From: Zygnema cylindricum
Lineage: Eukaryota; Streptophyta; Zygnematophyceae; Zygnematales; Zygnemataceae
Direction of reading: 5' to 3'
DNA: 49,851 nt
Assembly: GCA_037447655.1 (NCBI GenBank)
Contig: JBBHKE010001884.1
Coordinates: forward strand, 161,495-211,345
Shown piece after piece: positions 2,370 through 49,851 of this stretch. Made by a program: the position numbers and the translations under genes. Position 1 is the stretch's first letter; each line of letters begins with the position of its first letter. The notes beneath the pieces are model-generated. The model did no database searches and was not told where the DNA came from. It saw only the letters and a program-made list of their open reading frames with translations.

Positions 2370-5300
2370 TCACTTTTATTTTAAGACCACAATTCTCCCG
2401 GCAGAAAATTAGTTTAGGGGAAGGAACAGGTTTGGTCATCATATCAGCTACCATTTCACTATCTGGTTTAAACTCCAAACTGATTATCTTGTTTTCTACT
2501 TTCTCCCTAACAAAGCTAAGCCTAATGTCCATGTGTTTGGCTTTAAAGTGATGTTAAGGATTGGCACAAATGGCAATGGCAGCCTGATTATCACAAAACA
2601 CTTTTTGGACACCACTCTTAAGTTGACCAAGCTCACCAAGTAAAGATTTCACGCACATTAATTCTTTTACAGCAGAGCAAGAAGCCATGTACTCAGCCTC
2701 CATGGTGGACTGAGCAATGACCTTTTGCTGCTTGCTGCTCCAGCAGTAAGCCCCATCACCCACATACAGTATATATCCAGATGTGAATCTCCTCATAGGA
2801 GCATCCCCATAGCTGGCATCACTTCAAGTGGTGATGTCAGTATTTTTCCCACGTAAATGCAACCATAAATCCCTAGTTCCTATGAGATATCTAAGGACTC
2901 TCTTAGCTGCCTCCTGATCTTTCTTAGTGGGAGCATTTAGACTCCTACTTAGTACTCCTACATCTGCGGCTATGTCCGGACGGGTACAATTGATAAAATA
3001 TATTAGGTTGCCCACTACTTGTCTATAAGGGATGGTCTGCATAAATCTTTTCTCTTCCCAGCCTACCTCATCATCTAAGATTATAACTCCCTCTTCCTCA
3101 CTCCCCTCACTTCCCTTCTTTAAATCCATAGGAGTGGTACAACTATTAGCCTTGTCCATTTGGAATTTTTCTAACATGTTTCCAATGGCCTATTTTTGAG
3201 TTAATCTGATTATCTTTCTCTATCTGTCCCTTTCTACCTGAATTCCCAAAATATACCTTGCTTCTCCCATATCCTTCATCTCAAATCTTCCTTTTAAATC
3301 ATTTTTCAACTTATTTATTTTATCCATAGATTTACTTAAAACAAGCAAATCATCGACATAAATTGCAATAAAAATAATTCCTTCCTCATCTTCAAAGAAA
3401 TATATAGAGTGATCTGAGCTGATCCGAATATATCCCAAACCTGTAAGAAACTCACCGAGCTTCTTGTTCCATTGCCTGGGCGCCTGTTTCAGCCCATACA
3501 AAGATTTGATCAATCGGCATACCTTGCTTTCCTCCCCTTGCTCCACAAATCCTTCGGGCAGTCGCATAAAAATTTCCTCTTCCAACTCTCCATGTAGGAA
3601 GGCCGTCTTGATGTCCATCTGATGCACTTCCATGTTTTGTGCTGCCGCCATACTGAGAAGTATATGAACCGAAGGAAACCTAACGACCGGAGCAAAAGTC
3701 TCCTAGTAGTCAATTCCCTCTTTCTGGGTAAATCCCTTCGCCACTAACCTAGCTTTGTAGCGCTCAATGGTGTTATTCGGGTTGGGTTTCAGCTTAAATA
3801 CCCACTTACACCAAATTGGCTTTTTGACAGGAGGACAATCCACCAATTCCCATGTATCGGCCGTCATAATTGAGGCCATCTCCTCATTTATGGCTGTTTT
3901 CCACCGGTTTCTTTCAGAACAAGTCATTGCCTCATTAAAAGTTTGAGGTTCATCGGGGTGAGACAGTTTGGTTACTTTATTGTTAACTTGTCTCTCTTAC
4001 AGTCTTTTGCTGCTTCTTCTTCCTCCCTCAAACTCGGTTGCCGGAATAGATGGTTCTCTTGGATTTTTCCGAACAGTTTCTACTTCTCCCCTATCCCTTG
4101 ATTCCGGGTCGATTTCCACCACGTCTTCCGCTTCGGTTGGAGTTAATACAAGGGGTTCCACATTTGGGTCCTTCTCGATCTGATCCGTACCTGCAAGATC
4201 ATCATCTTCTTGAAATCTTGGATAGTTAGGAAGCTCAAAGTCATCAGAATTTTCTGACTTAAATCTGATCTTGACTGTCCTTGTATGCTTAAAGGGATCA
4301 ATAGATTTTCCTTCTTCCATAACCACTAGATGCTTCACTAAAATAATATCCTCTCTTTTGAGATCATAGACTCTATATCCTTTTACATCTTCATCATATC
4401 CTAGTAGATATCCTGGTTTTCCTTTTGGGTCTAACTTCCATTTTGACCGATCTGTGTCTAAACTGAACACTTGACTACCGAAATCCTTTAAGTGTGAAAC
4501 ATCTGGTTTTCGGCCTGTCCATCTCTCATAAGGTGTTTGACCTTTTACTGCAGAAGTAAGAACTCTATTTTTGAGATAATTTGCACAGTTCATTGCTTCG
4601 GCCCAAAAATTCTTTCCTATCTTCTTATCGGACAGCATACTCCTAGCACTATCACTCAGTGTTCTATTTAATCTTTCAGCTACACCATTCTGCTCAAGAT
4701 TTTCAGGAACTGTCTTTTGGTGTTGCACTCCATCTTCTCTCAAAAACTCCTCAAATTGGTGAGAAGTATACTCTCCACCATTGTCACTCCTTACTCTCTT
4801 AATGAGGTTTCATGGAGTTTTTCACTCCATGCTTTATATTGTTTAAAACATTTCGAGCCTCTGACTTATTTTTCAAAAAATACACTCTGGAATACCGAGA
4901 CCAATCATCGGTGATAGTCATCATAAATCTCTTCCCCCCGGGTGATTGCACTCTGGCTGGCCCCTAAATATCTGTGTGTAATAAATCTAGAATCTTTTCT
5001 CCCTTATAGGTGACAGTTTTTGGGAAGGGCAACCTGTGTGCTTTACCTTGAGCACATCCACTACAATCACTTAGATTCTCACTTTTACCGAACTAAATCC
5101 CTTCCACTACTCCCATCTTTTTCATCTCTCTTAACTTATCTAGATTCACATGCCCAAGCCTTTTATGCCACAACATTATATCATGAACACCAGCATAATA
5201 AAGTTTCTTCTTTTCATTGCTTAAAATCAGCCTAAACATCCATTGGCTACCTTTTTTAGCAGTGAAATAAACTTCCTCCTCAAAGCTAGCAGTAAAGACT

Positions 5301-11900: not shown

Positions 11901-13233
11901 TGACTACGACGAAACCTTTGCCCCAATGGTCAAATTTCCCTCCGTCCGCATACTTCCCAGCTTGGCAGCAGTGGAAGACATGGAAGTGCACTAGATAGAC
12001 ATCAAGACAACCTTTTTGCATGGAGAATTAGAAGAGGAGATCTTCATGCGACAACCCGAAGGGTTTGTGGAGGAAGGAGAGGAGAGTAAGGTATACCGGC
12101 TGATTTAATCTCTTTATGGTTTGAAACAGGCGCCTCGACAGTGGAATAAGAAGCTTAATGAGTTTCTAATCAGTCTGGGATATATCCGGATCAGCCCAGA
12201 TCACTCAATCTATGTTTTTGAAGATGAGGAAGGTTTTATATTTATTGCAATATAAGTTGATGATTTGCTTGTTTTAAGTAAATTAATGGAAAAAATTAAT
12301 AAACTGAAAACCAATCTTAAGGGGAGATTTGAAATGAACGATATAGGGGAAGCAAAAAATATATTGGGAATTCAAGTAGAGGGAGACGGAAAAAGAAAAA
12401 TTATAAGATTGACTCAAAAGGAAGCAATAGGGAACATGCTTGAAAAATTTCAAATGGATAAAGCTAATAGTTGTACAACTCCAATGGAGTTGAAGAAGGG
12501 AACTGAGGGGAGTGAGGAAGGAGGAGTCATAGTCTTAGACGAGGAATTATCCACTGAAGAACAGAAGTTCATGCAAACTAATCCATACAGGCAAGTAGTA
12601 GGAAGTCTAATCTATTTTATGAATTCCACCCTGCCGGATTTAGCTGCAGCTGTAGGAGTGCTGAGTAGAAGTCTAAATGCTCCCACTAAGAGGGATAGGG
12701 AGGCAGCTAAGAGAGTCCTTTGATATTTGATAGGAACTAGGGATCTATGGTTGCATTTGGGTGGGGAGAATACTGACATCACTACTTGGAGTGATGCCAG
12801 TTATGGTGATGCTCCGATGAGGAGATGCACTTCTGGATATATTATATGTGGGTGATAGGGCTTGCTGTTGGAGTAACAAACAGCAAAAAGTTATTGCTCA
12901 GTCAACTTTGGAGGCTGAGTATATGGCCTCTTGCTCTGTTGTAAAAGAATTGATGTGGGTCAAGTCTTTGCTTGGTGAGCTTGGTCACCTTAAAAGTGGT
13001 GTGTAGAAGATTTTTTGTGATAATCAGGCAGCAATCGCTATTTCTGCCAATCCTAAACATCATTTTAAAGCCAAACACATGGACATTAGACTTAGCTTTG
13101 TTAGAGAGAAAGTAGAAAACAAAATAATCAGTTTAGAGTACAAACCAGACAGTGAGATGGTAGCAGATATGATGACCAAACCTGTGCCTTCCCCTAAGCT
13201 AATTTTCTACAGGGAGAAGTGTGGTCTGAAATG
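8916..13233 (+). pseudogene. CopA-2 gag-pol (decayed)
   Basis: Forward gag-pol relic. Gag starts MGKPSRVPIFNGTGLIYW, with early frameshifts and stops (for example a TAG near 9382). The protease motif reads DSSAS in place of DSGAS (about 10,047-10,062). The GAG-pre-integrase block has HKRLGHVN (ends 10,487 at a TAG), and the integrase has SDNGGEH and NGVAERLN. A long block at 11,024-11,689 covers the integrase C-terminal linker. In the RT palm the tyrosine before VDD is a stop codon (TAA near 12,253). RNase H follows to about 13,233. At least ten stops or frame changes are visible, so no polyprotein can be made. Confidence 0.85.
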
Positions 13234-13259
13234 AAAGATTGACTAGAAAATAATGAGAG

Positions 13260-18963: not shown

Positions 18964-19517
18964 AGAAGGCTTACTCACTTAGAACACATGCTTTTTACTC
19001 CAATTTAGGAGCGGGAAGGGCTTTAGTCAACATGTCCGCAACCATTTTTTCATCATGCAAATAACAAAGTTTGACCACTTTTGCAAAAACTTTCTCTTAT
19101 ACCAAATGTAGCCAAATGTCCATATGTTTACTCTTAAAATGGTGACTTGGGTTTGTAGCCATTGAAATGGTTGCCTAATTGTCGCACCACATTATTTGTG
19201 TCACGTGTTGCGTAAAACCCAATTCTTCAAGAAATGCATTAATCTATAGCAACTCTTTCAAGGCTGCGCTCGCAGCCATGTATTCGGCTTCCATAGTAAA
19301 TTGAGCCATGACCTTTTGAAGTTTACTACTCCAACTACAAGTGCCACTTCCAATCTGAATGACATACCCAATTGTAGACTTCATACTAGGCACATCACCA
19401 TAACTAGCATTACTCCAAGAATTAATGCTAACCTTGTCCCCTTCCAAAGTAAGCCAAAGATTTCTAGTCCCAACAAGATACCTTAACACCTTTTTTGCAG
19501 CCTCCCAGTCTCTCTTT
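18964..19517 (-). pseudogene. CopB pol, RNase H end
   Basis: Minus-strand RNase H of a copia family distinct from CopA: MLRYLVGTRNLWLTLEGDKV, then YGDVPSMKSTIGYVIQIGSG and KVMAQFTMEAEYMAA (19489-19244). The C-terminus, in the A-D-M-L-T-K-A region, lies near 19,030. The frame is interrupted at 19,244 and again downstream. The CopA-3 insertion at 19,518 separates it from the upstream RT part at 25,982-27,489. Confidence 0.8.
19513..19517 (+). other. CopA-3 target site duplication, left
   Basis: TCTTT, identical to 25982-25986 on the other side of CopA-3. Confidence 0.93.
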
Positions 19518-20573
19518 TGTAGAATTTAATGGTACATTTTTAGTATTTTCTAGGTCTATATAGAAATATAGAAAGAAGCCGAGGCAGTCTACCTCTAACT
19601 TCTCTCTCCAAACTCTCAAACTTGTCGCAGTCACTGAGAAATTGAAGAGGGAGCTAGAGCCATGGCTACCTATGCTATCCAGAGGTTTACGGGAAATTTA
19701 TATTAGTTAGGGTTTATTTATTTAAAAGGAATGTGCCGGCGACAGGAATTGATCCTTGTACCTACCAGCCGGCAGACAGGAAGTAGCCGGTAGCCTTAGC
19801 CGTTAACTCTAGATATAACATTACGTAGTATATAGTTTGATATTTATTTAAACATGTAAACGTAGGATAAATCATTTAACTTTAATTGTTTACAGTATAC
19901 ATAGATCCGGTAATGTATAAGTACGGAATACGGTACGAGCAAGAAATCAATACCGCACCTTTATTTCTTAAGTGAAACGAACACCGCGCATGTATTTATT
20001 ACGGCTACGATTAAATTCGATTGTAATCTAACGGCCGGAATTAGCGCCGAGATCGGGGAAGAAGATTTTGGCGGTTTGTGGCCATCGTCATATCGGATGA
20101 CGCGTGGCGTAATTACATTCGATCGTGGAATCTCCGGAGATTATGGCAACGAATCCGCATATGACATGTGTCGACATTTAGGGCATGTCGTACAATGTCC
20201 GTACATAAAGTACACCGGCAGCTGTACTTTTGCGTACGGAACTGTATTCTGATTGGTTCCGTACATCAGAAGATAGAGTCTGTGAGGGAGATAGGACTTA
20301 GAAAAATTAGAAGATAGGACCCTCTCTCCCAGAGAGCTTCTGTACAAAAGGTCAACTTTGACCCTCCATAACTTACTGCTCAGGGGAGCAAATTCAGTGA
20401 TTTTTTTTGCTATCGACTCCGGGGAGTATTCTCTTCACAAGGGTGCAGGTTGTCGGAGTGTTTGTCTGCCAGGGTAACAGTTATTCTTGCTAAAACACAA
20501 AGGGGTCAAGATTATCCTAGAGGCTTCTTGGAAGCTGTCCACTCTGAGGACTTATGGAGGTCTCGGAGTTTCA
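19518..20573 (+). repeat. CopA-3 5' LTR
   Basis: 1,056 bp, TGTAGAATTTAATGG...TCTCGGAGTTTCA. It contains the antisense tRNA-like stretch (about 19743-19806) and a hairpin, CCGTACATAAAGTACA (20199-20214) with TGTACTTTTGCGTACGG (20223-20239). Confidence 0.95.
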
Positions 20574-23500: not shown

Positions 23501-24912
23501 TAATACAATCGAGCGCTACAAGGCCAGATTAGTGGCAAAGGGATTTACACAAAAGGAGAGAATTGACTACGAGGAAACCTTTGCCTCGGTGGTCAGATTT
23601 CCCTCCGTCCGCATACTTCTCTGTTAAGGAGCAGCGGAAGACATGGAAGTGCACCAGATGGACATCAAGACAGCCTTTTTGCATGGAGAATTGGAATAGG
23701 AGATCTTCATGCGACAACCCGAAGGTTTTGTGGAGGAAGGAGAGGAGAGTAAGGTATGCCGGCTAATTAAATCTCTTTATGGTTTGAAACAGGCGCCTCG
23801 ACAGTGGAATAAGAATCTAGATGAGTTTCTTACCGGTTAAGGATATATTTGGATCAGCTTAGATCACTCAATCTATGTTTTCGAAGATGAGGAAGGTTTT
23901 ATATTTATTGCAATTTATGTTGATTATTTGCTTGTTTTAAGTAAATCTATGGAAAAAATTAATAAACTGAAAACCGATCTTAAGGGGAGATTTGAAATGA
24001 AGGATATGGGAGAAGCAAAATATATTTTGGGAATTCAAATAGAGAGAGACCGAAAAAGGAAAATTATAAGACTGACTCAAAATGAAGCAATAGGGAACAT
24101 GCTTGAAAAATTTCAAATGGATAAAGCTAATAGTTGTACAACTCCAATGGAGTTATAGAAGGGAAGTGAGGGGAGTGAGGAAGAAGAAGTCATAGTCTTA
24201 GACGAGGAATTATCTCCTGAAGAACAGAAGTTCATGCAGACTATTCCTTACAGGCAAGTAGTGGGAAGTCTAATCTATTTTATGAATTGTACCCGGCCGG
24301 ATTTAGGTGCAGCTGTAGGAGTGCTGCGTAGAAGTCTAAATGCTCCCACTAAGAAGGATTGGGAGGCAGCTAAGAGAGTCTTTAGATATTTGATAGGAAC
24401 TAGGGATCTATGGTTGCATTTGGGTGGGGAGATTACTGATATTACTACTTGGAGTGATGTCAGTTATGGTGATGCTCCAATGAGGCGAAGCACTTCTGGA
24501 TATGTATTATATGTGGGTGATGGGGCTTGTTGTTGGAGTAGCAAACAGCAAAAAGGTTATTGCTCAGTCCACCATGGAGGCTGAGTATATGGCCTCTTGC
24601 TCTGCTGTAAAAGAATTTATGTGGGTCAAGTCTTTGCTTGGTGAGCTTGGTCACCTTAAGAGTGGTGTGCTGAATTTTTTTTGTGATAATCACGCAGCAA
24701 TCGCTATTTTTGCCAATTTTAAACATCATTTTAAAGCCAAACACATGGACATCAGACTCAGCTTTGTTAGAGAGAAAGTAGAAAACAAAATAATCAGTTT
24801 AGAGTACAGACCAGATAGTGAGATGGTTGCAGATATGATGACCAAACCAGTGCCTTCCCCTAAGCTAATTTTCTGCAGGGAGAAGTGCGGTCTGAAATTA
24901 AAGATTGACTAG
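20554..24912 (+). pseudogene. CopA-3 gag-pol (decayed)
   Basis: The ATG at 20554 lies in the LTR end and is in frame with an ATG inside the primer binding site. Gag is open to 21288 (TGA) and ends with the zinc knuckle CHLCKKPGHYMAEC. The next block (21481-22182) has the intact protease motif IVDSGASMHM and the GAG-pre-integrase motif HKRLGHVN. The integrase (22324-22839) shows its D-D-E residues in HTDIWGP, SDNGGEY and NGVAERLN. TAG at 22837-22839 and TAA at 22852-22854 follow, then a frameshift near 23,205. The RT palm has YVDY (23916-23927) where YVDD is required. RNase H has a further frameshift near 24,560. The polyprotein would run particle assembly, cDNA synthesis and integration, but this copy cannot encode it. 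Confidence 0.9.
20574..20588 (+). promoter_or_regulatory. CopA-3 half-tRNA primer binding site
   Basis: GGTTATGGGACCACC starts on the base after the LTR. It matches the complement of the initiator tRNA-Met anticodon arm at 14 of 15 bases. It includes an ATG (20578) in frame with gag, in strong context (G at -3, G at +4). Confidence 0.85.
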
Positions 24913-27489: not shown

Positions 27490-27702
27490 AGTGTTGGGTA
27501 TCGGGTAGTTTCATATCGCGATAATTCGCTATTCTATATATCGAATATCGATCGAGCAGATTCCTCGATATATCGTATCGGAACCAACATAAATTATCGC
27601 GATATATATCGCAAAAATTGCATATCCGTACAGCAGAGTACGGAAAATCGTACGAAAAAGCGTACGAAGAATCGTACGAAAAATCGTACGGATATTTGGC
27701 CC
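27490..27702. repeat. possible hAT-type transposon end with CGATA and CGTACGAAA repeats
   Basis: CopB pol stops abruptly and AGTGTTGGGTATCGGGTAG begins, resembling hAT termini. It is followed by dense palindromic motifs (TATCGCGATA, ATATCGATCG, CGATATATCG) and about five short repeats of AATCGTACGAAA (27645-27702). The other end is lost at the assembly gap, so neither inverted ends nor target duplication can be tested. Confidence 0.35.
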
Positions 27703-27757
27703 CCCGCCCCCCCCCCCCCCCCCCCAGCGGGGGGGGGGGGGGGGGGGGGGGGGGGGG
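27700..27757. repeat. C-run then G-run beside an assembly gap
   Basis: Six C, one G, nineteen C (27700-27725), then AGC, then 29 G (27729-27757), directly against the N run. A C-to-G switch like this at a contig edge looks like a sequencing or joining artefact. Confidence 0.85.
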
Positions 27758-27767
27758 NNNNNNNNNN
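27758..27767. other. assembly gap (10 N)
   Basis: Ten N bases, a nominal gap of unknown true size. Confidence 0.98.
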
Positions 27768-28004
27768 GTCGGAGGTACCACCTGACTCGTTATTGAAAAA
27801 CAACAAACGATGAGCTTGTCGTTCGGGGTAGTGGGTGTAAATTAAGTATAGGTCTTCACGTAGAGGAGTAGTCTCGTAGTGGTATTGACCGTAGTGAGGT
27901 TCATCACTACAATCATAAGAGGGGTGGGTTTACGTTGGTATCTAGGGATCAAGGATAGTTTATAGATTCCTGAGAGAATCGACGGAGGGTTAGGGAGAAT
28001 CACC
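27768..28004. other. CopA pol sequence written in reverse without complementing
   Basis: Read backwards base by base (not complemented), these 237 bases give normal CopA RNase H sequence: CCACTAAGAGGGATTGGGAG at 28004 going down, then the usual TTGATAGGAACTAGGGATC region, ending ACCATGGAGGCTG at 27768. Bases 27768-27840 are an exact mirror of 28005-28077, including the private variant CTGTTCGAG. The sequence is meaningless in either normal strand. It is almost certainly an assembly error. Any ORF called across it is false. Confidence 0.95.
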
Positions 28005-28405
28005 AATGTGGGTGATGGGGCTTGCTGTTCGAGTAGCAAACAACAAAAAGTTATTGCTCAGTCCACCATGGAGGCTGAGTATATGGCCTCTTGCTCTGCT
28101 GTAAAAGAATTGATGTGGGTCAAGTCTTTGCTTGGTGAGCTTGGTCACCTTAAGAGTGGTGTGCATAAATATTTTTGTGATCATCAGGCAGCCATCGCTA
28201 TTTCTCCCAATCCTAAACATCATTTTAAAGCTAAACACATGGACATTAGACTCAGCTTTGTTAGAGAGAAAGTAGAAAACAAAATAATCAGTTTAGAGTA
28301 CCGACCAGATAGTGAGATGGTAGCAGATATAATGACCAAACCTATGCCTTCCCCTAAGCTAATTTTCTGCAGGGAAAAGTGTGCTTGAAATTGAAGATTG
28401 ACTAG
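28005..28405 (+). pseudogene. CopA-4 RNase H end
   Basis: Forward RNase H C-terminal part: KQQKVIAQSTMEAEYMASCS, YFCDHQAAIAI, HMDIRLSFVREKVENKI and ADIMTKPMPSPKLIF. A 1-bp loss near 28,385 shifts the frame just before the usual end. It is followed by the purine tract (AAATAAGGGGAG) and an LTR. The upstream part of this copy is the reversed block and the gap. Confidence 0.85.
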
Positions 28406-33347: not shown

Positions 33348-33862
33348 CTCCCCTTATTTTCTAGTCAATCTTTAATTTCATACCACACTTCTCCTTGCAA
33401 AAAATTAGCTTAGGGGAAGGCACAGGTTTGGTCATCATATCTGCTACCATCTCACTATCTGGTCGGTACTCTAAACTGATTATTTTGTTTTCTACTTTCT
33501 CTTTAACAACGCTGAGTCTAATGTCCATGTGTTTGGCTCTAAAATGATGTTAAAGATTGGCAAAAATAGCGATTGCTGCCTGATTATCACAAAAAATTTT
33601 ATGCAAACCACTCTTAAGGTGACCAAGCTCACTAAGCAAAGACTTGACCCACATCAATTCTTTTACAGCAGAGCAAGAGGTCATATACTCAGCCTCCATG
33701 GTGGACTGAGCAATAACTTTTTGTTGTTTGCTACTCCAACAGCAAGCCCCATCACCCACATATAATACATATCCAGAAGTGCATCTCCTCATCGAAGCAT
33801 CACCATAATTGGCATCACTCGAAGTAGTGATGTCACCATTCTCCCCACCCAAATGCAACCAC
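33348..33862 (-). pseudogene. CopA RNase H end upstream of the CopA-5 LTR
   Basis: Minus-strand RNase H (HLGGENGDITTSSDANYGDA, KQQKVIAQSTMEAEYMTS, IFCDNQAAIAIFANL; 33864-33550), C-terminus and purine tract (minus-sense AAATAAGGGGAG) running into the LTR at 33347. It is cut at 33862 by the 5' LTR of CopA-6. With 28850-33347 it gives the order pol-LTR-gag on the minus strand. Confidence 0.85.
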
Positions 33863-37900: not shown

Positions 37901-39254
37901 GGGAATTGACTAGGAGGAAACCTTTGCCCCGGTCGTCAGATTTCTCTCCGTCCGCATATTTCTCACTCAAGCAGTAGCGGAAGACATAGAAGTGCATCTG
38001 ATGGACATCAAGACAGCCTTTTTGCATGGATAATTGGAAGAGAAGATCTTCATGCGACAACCCGAAGGGTTTGTAGAGGAAGGAGAGGAGAGTAATGTAT
38101 GTTGGCTGATTAAATCTCTTTATGGTTTGAAACAAGCGCCTCGACAGTAGAATAAGAAGCTTGATGAGTTTCTTACCTGTCTGGGATATATCCGGATCAG
38201 CTTAGATAATCCAATCTATGTTTTCGAAGATGAGGAAGGTTTTATATTTATTGCAATTTATGTTGATGAATTGCTTGTTTAAAGTAAATCAATGGAAAAA
38301 ATTAATAAACTGAAAACCGATCTTAAGGGGAGATTTGAAATGAAGGATATGGGGGAAGCAAAATATATTTTGGGAATTCAAGTAGAAAGAGACGGAAAAA
38401 GAAAGATTATAAGATTGACTCAAAAGGAAGCAATATGGAACATGCTTGAAAAATTTTAGATGGATAAAGCTAATAGTTCTACAACTCCAATGGAGTTGAA
38501 GAAGGGAAGTGAAGGAAGTGAGGAAGAAGGAGTCATAGTCTTAGACGAGGAATTATCTCCTGAAGAACAGAAGTTCATGCAGACTATTCCTTACAGGCAA
38601 GTAGTGGGAAGTATAATCTATTTTATAAATTGTACCCGGCCGGATTTAGCTGCAGCTGTAGGAGTGCTGAGTAGAAGTCTAAATGCTCCCACTAAGAGGG
38701 ATTGGGAGGCAGCTAAGAGAGTCCTTAGATATTTGATAGGAAAAAGGGATCTATGGTTGCATTTGGGTGGGGAGAATACTAACATCACTACTTGGAGTGA
38801 TGCCAGTTATGGTGATGCTCCGATGAGGAGATGCACTTATAGATATGTATTATATGTGGGTGATATGGCTTGCTGTTGGAGTAGCAAACAACAAAAAGTT
38901 ATTACTCAGTCCACCATGGAGGCTGAGTATATGGCCTCTTGCTCTGTTGTAAAAGAATTGATGTGGGTCAAGTCTTTGCTTGGTGAGCTTGGTCACCTTA
39001 AGAGTGGTGAGAATAAATTTTTTTGTGATAATGAGGCAGCAATCGCTATTTTTGCCAATCCTAAACATCATTTTAAAGCCAAACACATGGACATTAGACT
39101 TAGCTTTGTTAGAGAGAAAGTAGAAAACAAAATAATCAGTTTAGAGTACCGACCGGATAGTGAGATGGTAGCAAATAGGATGACCAAACCTGTGCCTTCC
39201 CCTAAGCTAATTTTTTGCACGGAGAAGTGTGGTATGAAATTAAAGATTGACTAG
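34898..39254 (+). pseudogene. CopA-6 gag-pol (decayed)
   Basis: Gag begins MKVSEFQVMGTPSNVPIFNG and is broken by stops near 35,236 and 35,434. Lesions shared with CopA-5: the 1-bp loss at 35951-35962, NSGAS for DSGAS (codon 36055-36057), TAG at 36205-36207 and TGA at 37827-37829. Lesions shared with CopA-3: TAG at 37179-37181 and TAA at 37194-37196 after integrase. The RT palm reads YVDE (38259-38270). The last block (38460-39254) is open through RT thumb and RNase H to the normal end KLKID. The protein is not makeable, and the lesion pattern points to a mosaic origin. Confidence 0.88.
34918..34932 (+). promoter_or_regulatory. CopA-6 half-tRNA primer binding site
   Basis: GGTTATGGGCACACC, 14 of 15 bases complementary to the initiator tRNA-Met anticodon arm, directly after the LTR. 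Confidence 0.83.
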
Positions 39255-39267
39255 AAAATAAGGGGAG

Positions 39268-40336
39268 TGTAGAAGTTAATGGTCTGTTTAAAGTATTTCC
39301 TAGATCTTAATAGAAATATAGAAAGAAGCCGAGGTAGTCTACCTTTAACTTCTCTCTCCAACTCTCAAACTTGTCGCAGTCACTGAAAAGTTGGAGAGGA
39401 AGCTAGAGCCAAAGCTACCTTGGCTATCCAGAGGTTTACGAAAAATATATATATTAATTTATTTACCGTTAGGGGTTTATTTACTAAAAGGTATGTGATT
39501 ACCCCAGGATTTGATCTTGGTACCTGCGGGACGGTAAACAGCTAATAGCCGGTAGCCTTAACTGTTAAGTCTTGACATAGAGTTACGTGTTATAGGGTTT
39601 GATTATTAATTAAACATTAATACGTACGATAATTCATTTTACTAAAACAGTTTAACGGGAGACATAGATCTGGTAATGTAAAAGTACGGATTACAGTACG
39701 GATAAAAAACGAATACCCCGCATTTATTTATTTAGCGAAACAAATACCGCGCATGTATTTATTACGGCTACCATTAAATGTGAATTTAATCGGACGGCTG
39801 GAATTACACGCCAAGATCGTGAAAAGGATTTCGGCGGTTTTTGGTCATCGCCACTTCGGATGACACATGGCCGAATGACATTAGATCGCGGCATCTCCGA
39901 GGATTAAGGGAGCGAATCCGGATATACCACGTGCCGACATTTAGGCCATGTCCTACAATGTCCGTAAAAAAAGGACACCGACAGATGTACTTTTGTGTAC
40001 GGAAGTGGAATATGATTGGCTCTGTACATCAGTAGATAGAGTCTGTGAGAGAGATAGGACTTAGAAAAATTAGGAGATAAGACCCTCTCTCCCAAAGAGC
40101 TTCTATACAAAAGGTCAACATTGACCCTCCATAACTTACTGCTCAGGGGAGCAAATTCAGAGATTCTTTTTGCTATCGACTGAAGGGAGTCTTGCCTTCA
40201 CATGGGTGAAGTTGGTCAGAGTTTTTGTCTGCCTGGGTGGCATTTGTTCTTACTGAAACACAAAGGGGTCAGGGTTATCCTAGAGGCTTCTTGGAAGCTG
40301 TCCACTCTGAGGACTTATGGAGGTCTTAGAGTTTTA
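39268..40336 (+). repeat. CopA-6 3' LTR
   Basis: 1,069 bp, TGTAGAAGTTAATGG...AGAGTTTTA, preceded by CTAGAAAATAAGGGGAG. It carries GTGATTACCCCAGGATTTGATC and so groups with the CopA-5 LTR, not with its own 5' partner. Confidence 0.88.
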
Positions 40337-43330
40337 ACACTATTTACGATTTCTTGGAACCTAGTCACATGAGTTGGTCCATCCTAGCATACACATCGAC
40401 TAGGTCTCAGATGCCTGTACGCGCAGCACTATATTGCATAGTTGCATTTCCATCTAGAAGTTGGCATCATGCTGTAAATTGTTTCCATTAGCTTCTGACT
40501 GAGTATGAATTGCGACAATCCTTAATAGCGGATGAACAACTAGCGTTTGCACAGGCCATGGAAGCCATTACCATCGACGTACCTGAAAAACCAATGTGGA
40601 AATTTGGGAGGGGACTAACGAAACCGGAACACGAACTGTTATACACAGTCATAAACCAACACAAAGACGCGTTCGCTTACTCAATGAAAGATTTGGATCG
40701 ACACACCACTTACACATTGTCCATTGACCTAGAAGATGATAGACCCATATTCCAACCCAAACATCGTCTATTAGAAATTGAATGGGAAGCAGTGGACAAA
40801 CAATGCACAAAGTTAGAAGAGGCAGGACTAATTATAGGTTCGACTCCACCTTTGCAGCGCCCACCATCATGCCTCGTAAAAAAGACGCATAGGGGAATTT
40901 CACAGAACGTCGCATGTGCGGGGACTATCGAGAAATGAATTCCCGTACAATCTAGGACCGACATCCAATGCCTTTGGCGGAGGACATTTTTGATCACGTC
41001 AGAGGGGCTATATATTTCAGCATTGTGGATGTGCGACATGGGTTTAACCAAATTGAAATAGAGGAAAAAGAATGACATAAGACAACATTTTGGGGAAGTG
41101 ACGGGCGTTGGGAATGGTTAGTTATGCCCTTTGGCTTGAAAAATGCATTGGTATTTTTCTACTGGGTTATCGACTCAGTCTTAGGGGGTGTAAGTTTGCC
41201 CGTTGCTATATTGACGATTTAATCATTGCATCAGCCTCTATAGAGGAACACGCAGTACATATATAGTGGGTATTAAAGGAGTTGAAAAAGGTGGGTGTTA
41301 AATGCCATCCTGCCAAATGCATCTTCGAGGCTGAAAGGGTACCATGTCTTACGCAATTTATCTCATCCGAGGGAATTACTCCACTAGAAGCCAAGGTAAA
41401 AAGGATCAGTAAACTACAGGCCCCAACAGGTTTAAGTAGCTTGTGTGCATTCTTTGGTTTGGCTAATTATTATTAGAGGTTTGTTCCTAGTTTTAGCACA
41501 CTCGCATCCCCACTAAATGAACTTTTGAAAAAATCAGTGTCGTTTACTTGGGGACCCTCGCAAATTGAGGCATTCCAGGGATTAAAGAAAGCATTGTCCA
41601 CCGCTCCCATTCTTCGTCCACCAAATCATAAGTTACCATTTTGTCTGCAAACAGATTTTGGTAAGCTCGGTATCGCAGCCATCCTAACCAAGCGTGAGCT
41701 CACTAGCGAGGAATATGTGGTGGCTTATGCCAGTCGAAGCAACAATCAAGCGGAGTCGAACAACAGTAGTTATGAAAGGGAGTGCCTTGCTAGAGTTTGG
41801 AGAATTGTGCATTTTCGCCATTATCTTTATGCCAAGCCTTTTACTCTTCTTACTGACCATCAACCATTGCATTGGCTCATGACCAATGACAAACTATTTG
41901 GCAAATTAGCCCTCTCGGCCCTTATTTTGCAAGAATACGATATAGAGATCATCCATTGACCGGGGCTCTTCAATTTGAAAGCCCGCGGTCTTTCTCGAAA
42001 CTCGTTACCCAATTCGGCCAATAATGGAGTGCGACAGGATTTTGATGACGAACTAGTTGCATCGTTTTCTGCCGGAGCACATCTGGTTTACAATTTTTCA
42101 GGCCCCACAGGTCTAAAAATAGAACACGATCCATGGCGCGATAGCGCTCTGGTTCTCTTTTTATCCACTCTGTTCTTTCGAGTTTGCACCTTAGCAGAAG
42201 AGGAGGAGCGTGTTCGTAAAAGCGCTCAAAATTACTTATGGATGGGAGGTTCCCTTATTCGTCTCCTCGCAGATGGAAGTCATCGGCATGTTCCTCGGCC
42301 GACAGAACGCGTATCAGTTATTGATCAGATTCATACTGATCTGGGACATCATGGTACCGAACGGACTTTGAGTTTAGTATAGACACGTTGTTGGTGGTCA
42401 GGTATGCAAGCTGACGTGGCGTTCGTGTTATAAGGATGTAGCACGTGTGACTGGTTGCGGACCTCATTCTTTAACTGCCAAACTTCACTTCAACCTTTGC
42501 ATATCCGAGGTCTTTTCTACAAGTGGTCGTGTGATTTGGCCGGTCCTTTCCCTGTCTCACGAAGGGGCAAGCAATACATCATGATCATGATCGAGAATTT
42601 TAGCAAATGGGTGGAAGTTGTGGCCCTCGCGCACAAAACTGCCAAACTCACCACCACCGCTTTCAAGGAGCATGTGCCCCTCCGATATGGAGCTCCGGCA
42701 GAAGTCCTTACAGACCAGGGGACCGAGTTTCGTGGCGAATTTCAAGAGATGTTGGACGAGGCGTTGATCGATCACCGTTGAACAAGTCGAGATCATCCCC
42801 AGGCAGACGGTTTGGCCAAGAGGGCGGTGCAAACATTTAAGCGGGCTTTGCGTAAACATTGCTTGGAGAAACATATCACTGTGCGGGATGAATCATTGGC
42901 TTATATTGTCATGGGTTATCGCATGTCTGTACAGGCCAGCTTAGCAAATTTCAGTCCGTATTATGTGTTATTTGGTCGACAGCCACTGCTAGGTAGAAAT
43001 ATACAGAAAGCCACAAGTTTTCTTTTGCGGCTTATGTTTGATTCTCTTTTTTTGGAAAAACTAACCAATCGGGCTTTGCTATTTGCTAGGGAAATTCCAA
43101 TGGCCTTTGAAAACTTGCAGATTGCTCAACATCGCGACTCCTTACGGTTTGCAACAACTCGTAGTGGCATTTAACGACCGCAACAAAAACCCTATCGGGT
43201 GGGGGAATATGTATATTTGCGTCGGCAAACATTCGACACACTCGACACGGATGTATCAGCTCACATATTGAGGATCACAAAAAAATACTCCAATGGATTA
43301 TTAAGCCTATAAGGGGCCGAGACACGAACT
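40337..43330 (+). pseudogene. Gyp-2 Ty3/gypsy pol: RT, RNase H, integrase
   Basis: Forward gypsy pol, 5' truncated at the CopA-6 edge. RT: YEMRQ-like N-terminal block (40510-40938), CGDYREMNSRTI after a frameshift, VMPFGLKNA, and the active site CYIDDLIIAS (about 41,206-41,235). Connection and RNase H (41282-41959) show FCLQTDFGKLG, SSYERECLA and LTDHQPL. Integrase: zinc-binding HHCC part (41975-42470) and the core, with CDLAGPF and LTDQGTEF. The third catalytic residue is Lys (AAG, 42819-42821) in GLAKRAVQ, where Glu is required. Stops and frameshifts separate the blocks. The element would have replicated through an RNA intermediate, but this copy is dead. Confidence 0.85.
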
Positions 43331-45316: not shown

Positions 45317-46125
45317 CAGAGGTCGCAAACGGTTAACCGAAACCGTGACCGACCGTTAACCGACCCCCCGCGCCGGATCCGGAACGGATTCGGTTGCCAA
45401 ATTTTGGGGGTCGGGCGGTTACGGTCGGTTGACTCACCAGGAAAAAAAAAACGGTCAGTTACGGTCGGTCAAACAAAAAACCAAAAAAAATGAAAATTTT
45501 GTACTTTTTTTTTCCAACATTATTGTTCTTTGTACTTTTGGTATCGTGGAAGTACATGGCATCATGATTAGCGTCGCAAATCTGACAAGGTACTGTAGTA
45601 AGCTATTTATTTCGCAAATCAAAGGGAACGCGACAAAGCGTCGCAAATCTGACACGGTAGTACACTATTCATTTCGAAAATCTTAGGGAAAGCGACAAAG
45701 CGTCTCATCTGACACGGTAGTACAATATTCATTTCGCAAATCTTAGGCAACGCGACAAAGCGTCGCAAATCTGACACAGTAGTACACTATTCATTTCGCA
45801 AATCTTAGGGAACGCGACAAAGCGTCGCAAATCTGACACGGTAGTAACACTATTCATTTCGCAAATCTTAGGGAACGCGACAAATCGTAATTATTGGCTT
45901 ATTCCGTCGTACATTGATTAATGTTGTACTTTTTCGGTTACGGGCGGGCACGGTTAGTCACGAAAAATCAAGATTCGGTTATTTTTTTTTTCGTAAACGA
46001 CGGTCGGTTAACGGTTAACAATTTTGGAGCGTGACAAAACTCGGTCGGGCGTCGGTTACTCAGATTTTGAAAAAAAAAAAACGGTCGGTTTCGGGTATGA
46101 TTTTTTTTGACTTTTGCGACCTCTG
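45317..46125. mobile_element. non-autonomous hAT-like DNA transposon
   Basis: An 809-bp element with terminal inverted repeats CAGAGGTCGCAAA / TTTGCGACCTCTG (13 bp perfect), flanked by perfect 8-bp direct repeats ACATAAGG (45309-45316 and 46126-46133). An 8-bp target duplication and CAGAGG-type ends are the hAT signature. Subterminal regions are full of CGGTCGGTTA-like motifs (for example 45410-45470 and 45935-46090), probable transposase sites. There is no transposase ORF, so it would move only with help. The middle holds a 62-bp tandem array. It lies about 0.5 kb upstream of the synthetase gene. Confidence 0.9.
45571..45887. repeat. 62-bp tandem repeat, about five units
   Basis: Units run GCGTCGCAAATCTGACACGG, then TAGTACACTATTCATTTCGC, then AAATCTTAGGGAACGCGACA and a few bases. 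The third unit lacks some bases, and the first unit is the most diverged. All units lie inside the hAT-like element. Confidence 0.92.
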
Positions 46126-46155
46126 ACATAAGGCTAATAACGATTCACGGTGTAC

Positions 46156-46616
46156 TGTACTGTGCAATATTTTTAGTTCGATCTGGCATCAGATTTTGAA
46201 ATCATCGAGCAGCCCGATATACATAATATCGGACGCTCTGCATCGCACGGAAAAAGACTTGCTCCTTCAATAAACGAGTTTGACAATTTGTCCGTTTTTT
46301 AGTTTCGGTAAATTAACAAAGTATGTAACACCTTGCAAATCCACGTGAAAATAGACGCTCTATCCGTACAACCTAAAGCCCTAGGCCTCTCTTTCCTTCC
46401 CTTAGGCTTCTCATTCTAGCTCCATTATTTTACAACTCTGAAAAAAGACTTTCGTCGTTCATGTCAAACATTATTCCACTAGCATCATTCTTGTGACACG
46501 TCATTATTTTATGTTTTTTCTTTCTTCTTGATCCCGTTATGCCAAATCCTCTTTCAAAAAAACTGCATTCCTCATCTTCTCATTCTTGCTGGGATTGCAG
46601 AAACCCTAAAACAATA
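46156..46616 (+). promoter_or_regulatory. promoter and 5' UTR region of the asparaginyl-tRNA synthetase gene
   Basis: The stretch upstream of the gene. It holds a G-box core CACGTG (46342-46347) and a telo-box-like AAACCCTAAA (46601-46610) just before the start codon. Telo-boxes are known in plant promoters and 5' UTRs of translation genes. I do not see an unambiguous TATA box. The transcription start is unknown. An in-frame ATG at 46539 would add 26 residues. Confidence 0.5.
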
Positions 46617-46865
46617 ATGGCAGGCGAAACTAAAACTGAAACTGAGACTGAAAGGGATGTTGCAACCATAGAAGCATCCTCTTTGCAAGCAAAATACTCA
46701 AAGAGAGTTCTCATAAAGTCGATTCTCAAAGCTCCCGGAGAAGGCCTCGCATTGGCTGGTCAAAAGTTGACTATTGGAGGATGGGTGAAAACAGGGAGAG
46801 AACAAGGGAAGGGAGAGTTTGCATTTTTGGAAATTAATGATGGCTCATGTCCCGCAAATCTTCAA
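46617..46865 (+). CDS. asparaginyl-tRNA synthetase, cytosolic: first coding exon
   Basis: Encodes MAGETKTETETERDVATIEA and continues through RVLIKSILKAPGEGLALAGQ to DGSCPANLQ, the N-terminal start of the OB-fold anticodon-binding domain of class IIb AsnRS. The enzyme charges tRNA-Asn with asparagine in the cytosol. The start at 46617 has good context (A at -3, G at +4). An upstream in-frame ATG at 46539 is possible. The exon ends in phase 0 at the donor GTAAGA (46866). The assignment rests on close resemblance to plant SYNC1-type enzymes across all visible exons. The gene runs off the right edge of the window. Confidence 0.9.
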
Positions 46866-47571
46866 GTAAGACTACCTTTGGCTTTTCTTTCTAGGGTTTT
46901 TAAGTCTCTCAGCATCACTTTGTTTAGGGTTTCTCTTTTTAGGGTTTCTAAGTCTCTCAAAAGGCTTACTTTAACTTCTAAAATATTTTTTTGAAAAACA
47001 TACTTTGGATGTTGGAAAATGTTCTTCCACACATTTTAACTCCCTCCAACATACTTTTGACTTTTGAAAATTTCTCAAAAACTTCTTATGTGAGTAAAAA
47101 CTAGGATTGATGTTGTGTTTTTGTGTGTTGGATACCATTTGATTCATGATCTGTTTGATCGTTAGCAAATATAAATCTCGTATTAGGGTTTTTCCATTTT
47201 TCCATTGTTCCATCCATTTCTTTTCCTTTCCATTTCCTTCCATTCCATTATTGTTTCCATTCCATCAGTTAGAAGTCCAGCCATGTTATTTATTTTTTAT
47301 TCCTCCACATTATTCGTTATCCATTTTTCATTCCATTCTATGATTCTCCACCTACTTGATTCTTTCCATTCCCTTCCCCTTCCTCCTTCCTCCTCCTCTC
47401 CTTCCCTCTTTCCCTCTTTCCCTCCCCCTCTTCTTCCCTCTTTCCCTCCTTCCCTCCCTTCCTTCCCCCTCTCCCTCCTTCCCCCCTCCCTCCCTCCTCC
47501 TCCTCCCCACTCCCTCGTTCCTCCCTCCCTCCTCCCTCCACCTCCTCCTCCCTCCTAATGTTGTTCCTCAG
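46866..47571 (+). other. first visible intron, CT-rich; expected exon not seen
   Basis: Begins GTAAGA and ends CCTAATGTTGTTCCTCAG. From about 47,190 it turns pyrimidine-rich, and 47,341-47,558 is almost only C and T. Plant AsnRS proteins have about 33 residues here (the rest of the OB-fold strand region), and the phases of the flanking exons (0, then needing one carried base) also require another exon. I found no matching sequence. Confidence 0.7.
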
Positions 47572-49371: not shown

Positions 49372-49695
49372 GTGACTACATTATTGAGTGAAGCAGAAAG
49401 AAGGGACAAAGAATTTGCGTCTCATCCTCCTCCTTCTGAGGAAGATGTAGAGGCAGCTCGAACTGAAGTAACTAATAAAGGGGAAATAGTGAAATCTTTA
49501 AAAGAACAGAAAGCAAGTAAGAGTGAAATTAAAGCGGCAGTCGAAGTTTTGAACAAATCGAAAGAAACTTTGCAGAGAATCGAAGAAAAATCGAAGTTGA
49601 GACCAGGACTTCCAAAAACCGATTCGGGTTCAGTTGACTATTCGGTTGACTTTTTTGCAAGACAAGCGTTTTTGACTGTCTCTGGACAACTTCAG
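49372..49695 (+). CDS. asparaginyl-tRNA synthetase: WHEP-like insertion exon
   Basis: One hundred and eight codons, from VTTLLSEAERR to FLTVSGQLQ, both ends phase 0, donor GTGAGA. Between the motif 1 region and DFFARQAFLTVSGQLQ it holds a charged helical hairpin (about residues 20-65 of the exon: EEDVEAARTEVTNKGEIVKS, then LKEQKASKSEIKAAVEVLNK). This is the WHEP-like insertion characteristic of plant cytosolic AsnRS, and it supports a land-plant origin. WHEP domains generally bind RNA or partner proteins. The rest of the catalytic domain (motifs 2 and 3) lies beyond the window. Confidence 0.93.
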
Positions 49696-49851
49696 GTGAG
49701 ATATAGTAGCCCTTTTCTTTATTGGTTTTTGTGTTTTGTGTTTTTTTTTTTTTGCGTCTTAATGGGTTCTCATAAGGCACGTTTCTAGTGTTTTGTGTTT
49801 TTGGTTATTTCTTTTCCCGATGATATAGAGTGGACTTCAACAGGTCTCTGT
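49696..49851 (+). other. start of the next intron
   Basis: Begins GTGAGATATAG and runs to the window end without a visible acceptor or further exon. The gene continues to the right. Confidence 0.75.

Follow-up and report, generated by a model that had tools for sequence, protein, structure and literature searches.

Two plainly reversed blocks, one beside a gap and one at the end of a Zygnema cylindricum genomic window, most likely an assembly file error

A stretch of 49,851 nt from Zygnema cylindricum (assembly GCA_037447655.1, contig JBBHKE010001884.1, positions 161,495-211,345 of the forward strand), hereafter called the window, contains two blocks of text that are printed backwards without being complemented: one is located at the edge of an assembly gap, and the other occupies the window's right-hand end, a putative contig end. 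In both cases, the mirrored block overlaps exactly with the correct sequence that adjoins it, over 73/73 nt in the former and 64/64 nt in the latter. It is almost certain that both blocks stem from a finishing step of the assembly, in which a string produced by contig-end extension or gap filling was reversed without complementing. Most likely, the backwards stretches are a file error and not biology, and no biological mechanism is needed to account for them. The block at the gap edge had been pointed out in an initial annotation of this DNA, and the one at the window end is absent from that annotation and is newly found here.

The gap-edge block occupies 27768-28004 and consists of 237 nt of Copia-type RNase H text. 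Its plain reverse aligns to a normal copy of the RNase H segment at 38689-38925 (plus strand) with 226/237 identities, without gaps and with a score of 419. The near base-for-base match reported in the initial annotation is therefore upheld, the partner coordinates given there (38,690-38,930) being off by a few bases. Equally, the block fits neither strand as written, as had been claimed: the score is 25 for the block as it stands and 25 for its reverse complement, both below the maximum of 30 obtained from 60 shuffles of the block. A natural inversion was rejected as its origin because the reverse complement scores no higher than the shuffles. When the reversed window was compared with the window by BLAST, the match to 38689-38925 had an E-value of 3.5e-105, and the block also matched 12683-12917 (94.1%) and 24346-24583 (92.9%) and, on the minus strand, 2694-2930 (86.1%), 33690-33861 (94.2%, 172 nt) and 19287-19516 (67.5%). 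Plain reversal is confirmed as a real property of the printed sequence.

Both edges of the block are sharp. The last N of the gap is at 27767 and the block starts at 27768, directly beside the 10-N gap as described before, and at 28005 the mirrored base diverges from the three copies compared. The mirrored block gives a 78-residue stop-free stretch in the same frame as in the copy at 38689, and Copia domains are encoded close by, in line with the earlier reading of the reversed text as retrotransposon RNase H sequence. As printed, the block has at least one stop in all six frames, with just one in frame 1 of the reverse complement. CpG and GpC occur 11 times and once, respectively, in the block versus 1448 and 1827 times in the window. 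Furthermore, k-mer polarity of the block is the lowest for k = 5 and 6 and the second lowest for k = 4 among 629 windows of the polarity scan, an extreme value that is partly due to the block's own unreversed copies in the training sequence.

Six related copies of the RNase H segment lie in both orientations within 50 kb, at 2378-2930 (minus), 12683-13241, 24346-24907, 28005-28400, 33366-33861 (minus) and 38689-39249. The five others are 86.9-93.9% identical to 28005-28400 in normal orientation. A more distant RNase H-like place is found at 19287-19516 (minus). The name RNase H is our own assignment from the motif of this Copia segment, and the open reading frames at 27966-28388 and 38460-39254 gave no Pfam match at 0.01. 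Pfam domains detected in the window are Retrotran_gag_2, rve and RVT_2. The RVT_2 fragment matched 1806 proteins; the best 120 of the 1806 are at most 48% identical, and the organism names among these 120 are mostly those of land plants, many rows being nameless.

The composition of the gap-edge block suggests how it came to its place. To its right, 28005-28077 (plus strand) is an ordinary contig start that is written correctly and runs on as Copia-type RNase H. The first part of the block, 27768-27840, is an exact mirror of this contig start (73/73), so that, once the block is mirrored, its final 73 letters are identical to 28005-28077. The same 73-nt comparison was made with five other copies, the more distant 19287-19516 being left out: 68 positions are identical at 38853-38925, 65 at 12845-12917, 71 at 33690-33861 (minus), 69 with two gap positions at 24346-24583, and 64 at 2694-2930 (minus). 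Because the overlap is 73/73 at the adjoining locus and 64 to 71/73 in the five other copies, the mirrored block can be assigned to this very locus; the same comparison led us to reject a different copy of the element as its source. The second part, 27841-28004, is 164 nt of new sequence, which we take as the true left neighbour of 28005 written backwards. After mirroring, it is 96.3% identical to 38689-38852 (164 nt) and 97.5% identical to 12683-12840 (158 nt). Position 164 of the mirror corresponds to 38852, and position 165, equivalent to 28005, to 38853, so that the mirrored text is collinear with the left neighbour of the segment in other copies. The exact overlap and the collinear 164 nt together indicate that the mirrored text would naturally adjoin the contig starting at 28005 on its left side. 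Judged from these letters, the block is best read as a leftward contig extension that was pasted backwards with its overlap left on.

The second block is shorter and has a similar organization. At the window's right-hand end, two 64-nt arms flank 47 nt. The left arm, 49677-49740 (plus strand), is correct text that covers the end of an exon similar to asparaginyl-tRNA synthetase (AsnRS) and then an apparent intron start. The right arm, 49788-49851, is its exact mirror (64/64) and reaches the last base of the window. Between them, 13 T at 49741-49753 stand at the junction of correct and reversed text and are assignable to neither side, and 34 nt of new sequence at 49754-49787 are presumably the true right neighbour written backwards. 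When 49741-49851 and its mirror were compared with the window by BLAST at E-values up to 1, just matches of 12-14 nt were found beyond the arms and their surroundings. Polarity does not set this block apart (ranks 112, 84 and 46 for k = 4, 5 and 6 against 629 windows, the block being shorter than the 237-nt windows used for the ranking), and hence it is the exact 64-base mirror that argues for reversal here. The arrangement reads as a rightward extension that was written in backwards. Should the contig end at 49851, as it may, 27768-49851 would be a single contig carrying a reversed patch at both of its ends.

No third reversed block and no internal case were found when the reversed window was searched against the window by BLAST, with the dust filter on and E-values up to 1e-4. 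The comparison gave 15 rows, every one of which involves one of the two blocks; they include the matches of the gap-edge block to six RNase H-like places and to 28005-28077, as well as the window-end block. With the same filter, neither the window's left end nor the left-hand gap edge showed a plain reversal, and the C/G-rich gap edge is beyond judgement because the dust filter was on. After removal of both blocks, exact plain-reverse matches other than simple sequence reached a maximum of 17 nt, compared with 76 nt when the blocks were kept in and the N were removed. Adjacent text palindromes of at least 26 nt are limited to TC repeats and a G run throughout the window. As a general detector, k-mer polarity caught the gap-edge block and not the window-end block. 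Low polarity was also observed at 45821-46136, 39422-39816, 42108-42344 and 19751-20066; these four stretches probably reflect composition, because none of them has a plain-reverse BLAST match. Outside the window, two reversed 16S rRNA motifs gave 0 and 0 hits in a prokaryotic contig collection, a search that had no forward positive control and bounds little. A Copia motif present at five places in the window had 0 forward hits among viral contigs, and for that reason these contigs are uninformative on reversal.

A simple sequence of events would produce both blocks. Contig ends would be lengthened outwards, either from reads or by a k-mer walk overlapping the end, with an overlap of 73 nt at the gap edge and of 64 nt or slightly more at the window end. 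The extension would then be written to the file reversed, uncomplemented and with the overlap untrimmed, and the pieces would finally be joined by a 10-N gap. For one of the two directions, an extension is commonly assembled on the opposite strand and must afterwards be reverse-complemented; reversing such an opposite-strand extension without complementing it results in exactly the printed text. Because the two overlaps differ (73 and 64 nt), one fixed k-mer length fits solely if a portion of the second overlap is concealed by the T run. A reversed string from contig-end extension or gap filling had already been proposed in the initial annotation, and the proposal now gains from the copy-specific 73-base overlap and from the second block. 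The finishing step is probably the one responsible, and the gap is consistent with this: 27758-27767 is exactly 10 N, the sole N run in the window, which fits the minimum-gap setting of a finishing program. In Pilon, for example, the default minimum gap is 10 N.

A minimum-gap option of this kind exists and was set to 1 in one study (PMC7202002). According to the passages of the Pilon paper that deal with gaps, the program acts on gaps and discrepant regions, neither joins nor breaks scaffolds, and performs k-mer walks from trusted flanks with a default K of 47; where a walk does not reach closure, consensus extensions are left in place together with a smaller gap (PMC4237348). The gap-edge block resembles such a partial fill in that a walk would begin at a k-mer of the flank, extend the trusted flank and leave a shortened gap (PMC4237348). 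There are differences, however. The present extension is a plain reversal that retains its overlap. In the same paper, 13 of 14 partial fills are counted as error-free, and the passages on these fills report no reversal (PMC4237348). In addition, the second block is found at the window end instead of beside a gap, and the passages on gaps describe no extension of scaffold ends; moreover, the K of 47 differs from the overlaps of 73 and 64 nt (PMC4237348). Pilon is therefore not claimed to be the program. Among the matches listed in phrase searches of one open-access library, no printed report of a reversed but uncomplemented assembly error was found.

Among other explanations, the sequence might have been changed once assembly was complete, manually or by a file-handling script and not by the assembler. 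Since a string reversal suffices for both blocks, such an alteration would explain their appearance, but the 164 nt of new sequence at the gap edge are identical to nothing in the window (at best 96.3% over the full length and 97.5% over 158 nt). Because these 164 nt occur identically nowhere and the 34 nt at the window end have matches of no more than 12-14 nt, the author of the blocks would have needed read data. The placement beside a gap and at the window end also suggests a pipeline, and we infer that a program and not a person was responsible; later alteration is regarded as very unlikely.

Still less probable, and by a clear step, is a sequencing artefact in which a single read, its signal interpreted from 3′ to 5′, was used as a patch. 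Plain reversal at a contig end would also be expected from such a read; nevertheless, a reversed read without a normal alignment to the contig could hardly be placed by an aligner, and exact overlaps of 73/73 and 64/64 are unlike what a read of this kind would give.

The blocks could, in principle, be real genomic DNA, if a strand was copied or joined in parallel orientation so that reversed and uncomplemented sequence arose beside its own template. Plain reversal is truly present in the printed sequence, as this explanation demands, but one block lies at an assembly gap and the other at the window end, no internal case was found, and each block holds an exact mirror of the adjoining sequence. 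To our knowledge, no enzyme carries out parallel-orientation copying in DNA, and we consider this origin highly improbable. Seligmann (2012, 2013; as cited in PMC5094600) claimed the existence of RNA that is inverted 3′-to-5′ and non-complementary and attributed it to an “invertase.” As far as that citation describes it, this RNA is like the present blocks in being reversed without complementing, but the claim concerns mitochondrial RNA, whereas the present case is assembled DNA with reversal at a gap edge and at a window end and with an exact overlap with the neighbouring sequence (PMC5094600).

The chance that we are dealing with fortuitous mirror similarity or with natural mirror repeats of the H-DNA type is negligible: the window-end block formally qualifies as a mirror repeat, its 64-nt arms being separated by 47 nt, and 73 nt of the gap-edge block likewise mirror adjoining sequence, but for the gap-edge block the 226/237 identities with E = 3.5e-105 and a score of 419 against a shuffle maximum of 30 leave no room for chance, the arms are of mixed sequence and neither homopurine nor homopyrimidine, adjacent palindromes at least 26 nt long are confined to the simple runs mentioned above, and H-DNA accounts neither for the positions at the gap and the window end nor for the 164 nt that have no adjoining forward partner.

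Reversed contig-end extension thus being the preferred reading, the blocks most likely have no importance as biology, and they matter as a question of data quality. Ordinary homology searches find no match for a plainly reversed patch; consequently, this class of error is missed, and the patch mimics unique or orphan sequence. It may also bear false open reading frames. The signature that could be scanned for is cheap: a contig is compared, plainly reversed, with itself, and matches with an exact overlap are sought at gap edges and contig ends. As two cases are found in one 50-kb window, the parent assembly may contain many.

The other edge of the gap is of low complexity. A C run of 26 nt with one G, the trinucleotide AGC and 29 G make up 27700-27757, and this region pairs with itself as an inverted repeat; it looks like a short-read extension that was failing at this side of the gap. 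Next to it, short repeats around CGTACG are observed at 27630-27699, possibly the cause of the assembly break at this place.

The correct text beside the window-end block belongs to an exon-like open reading frame at 49372-49692, which has an AsnRS/WHEP match and is followed by a putative splice donor. Its translation matched 17 proteins among 31 candidates, with up to 69% identity; 8 of the 17 are named asparaginyl-tRNA synthetase, and 11 carry PF00458, which we take to be the WHEP domain. The AsnRS of plants carries a WHEP domain. PDB entries matched by the same exon include 2djv, a methionyl-tRNA synthetase domain (E = 2.2e-4), and 6pqh, an asparagine-tRNA ligase (E = 4.2e-4). Another exon-like open reading frame, at 46497-46994, had no PDB match and has a sub-threshold Pfam match to an OB-fold anticodon-binding domain (20.4 bits, cut-off 27). 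Perhaps, 46497-46994 and 49372-49692 are parts of one asparaginyl-tRNA synthetase gene that is truncated by the end of the window.
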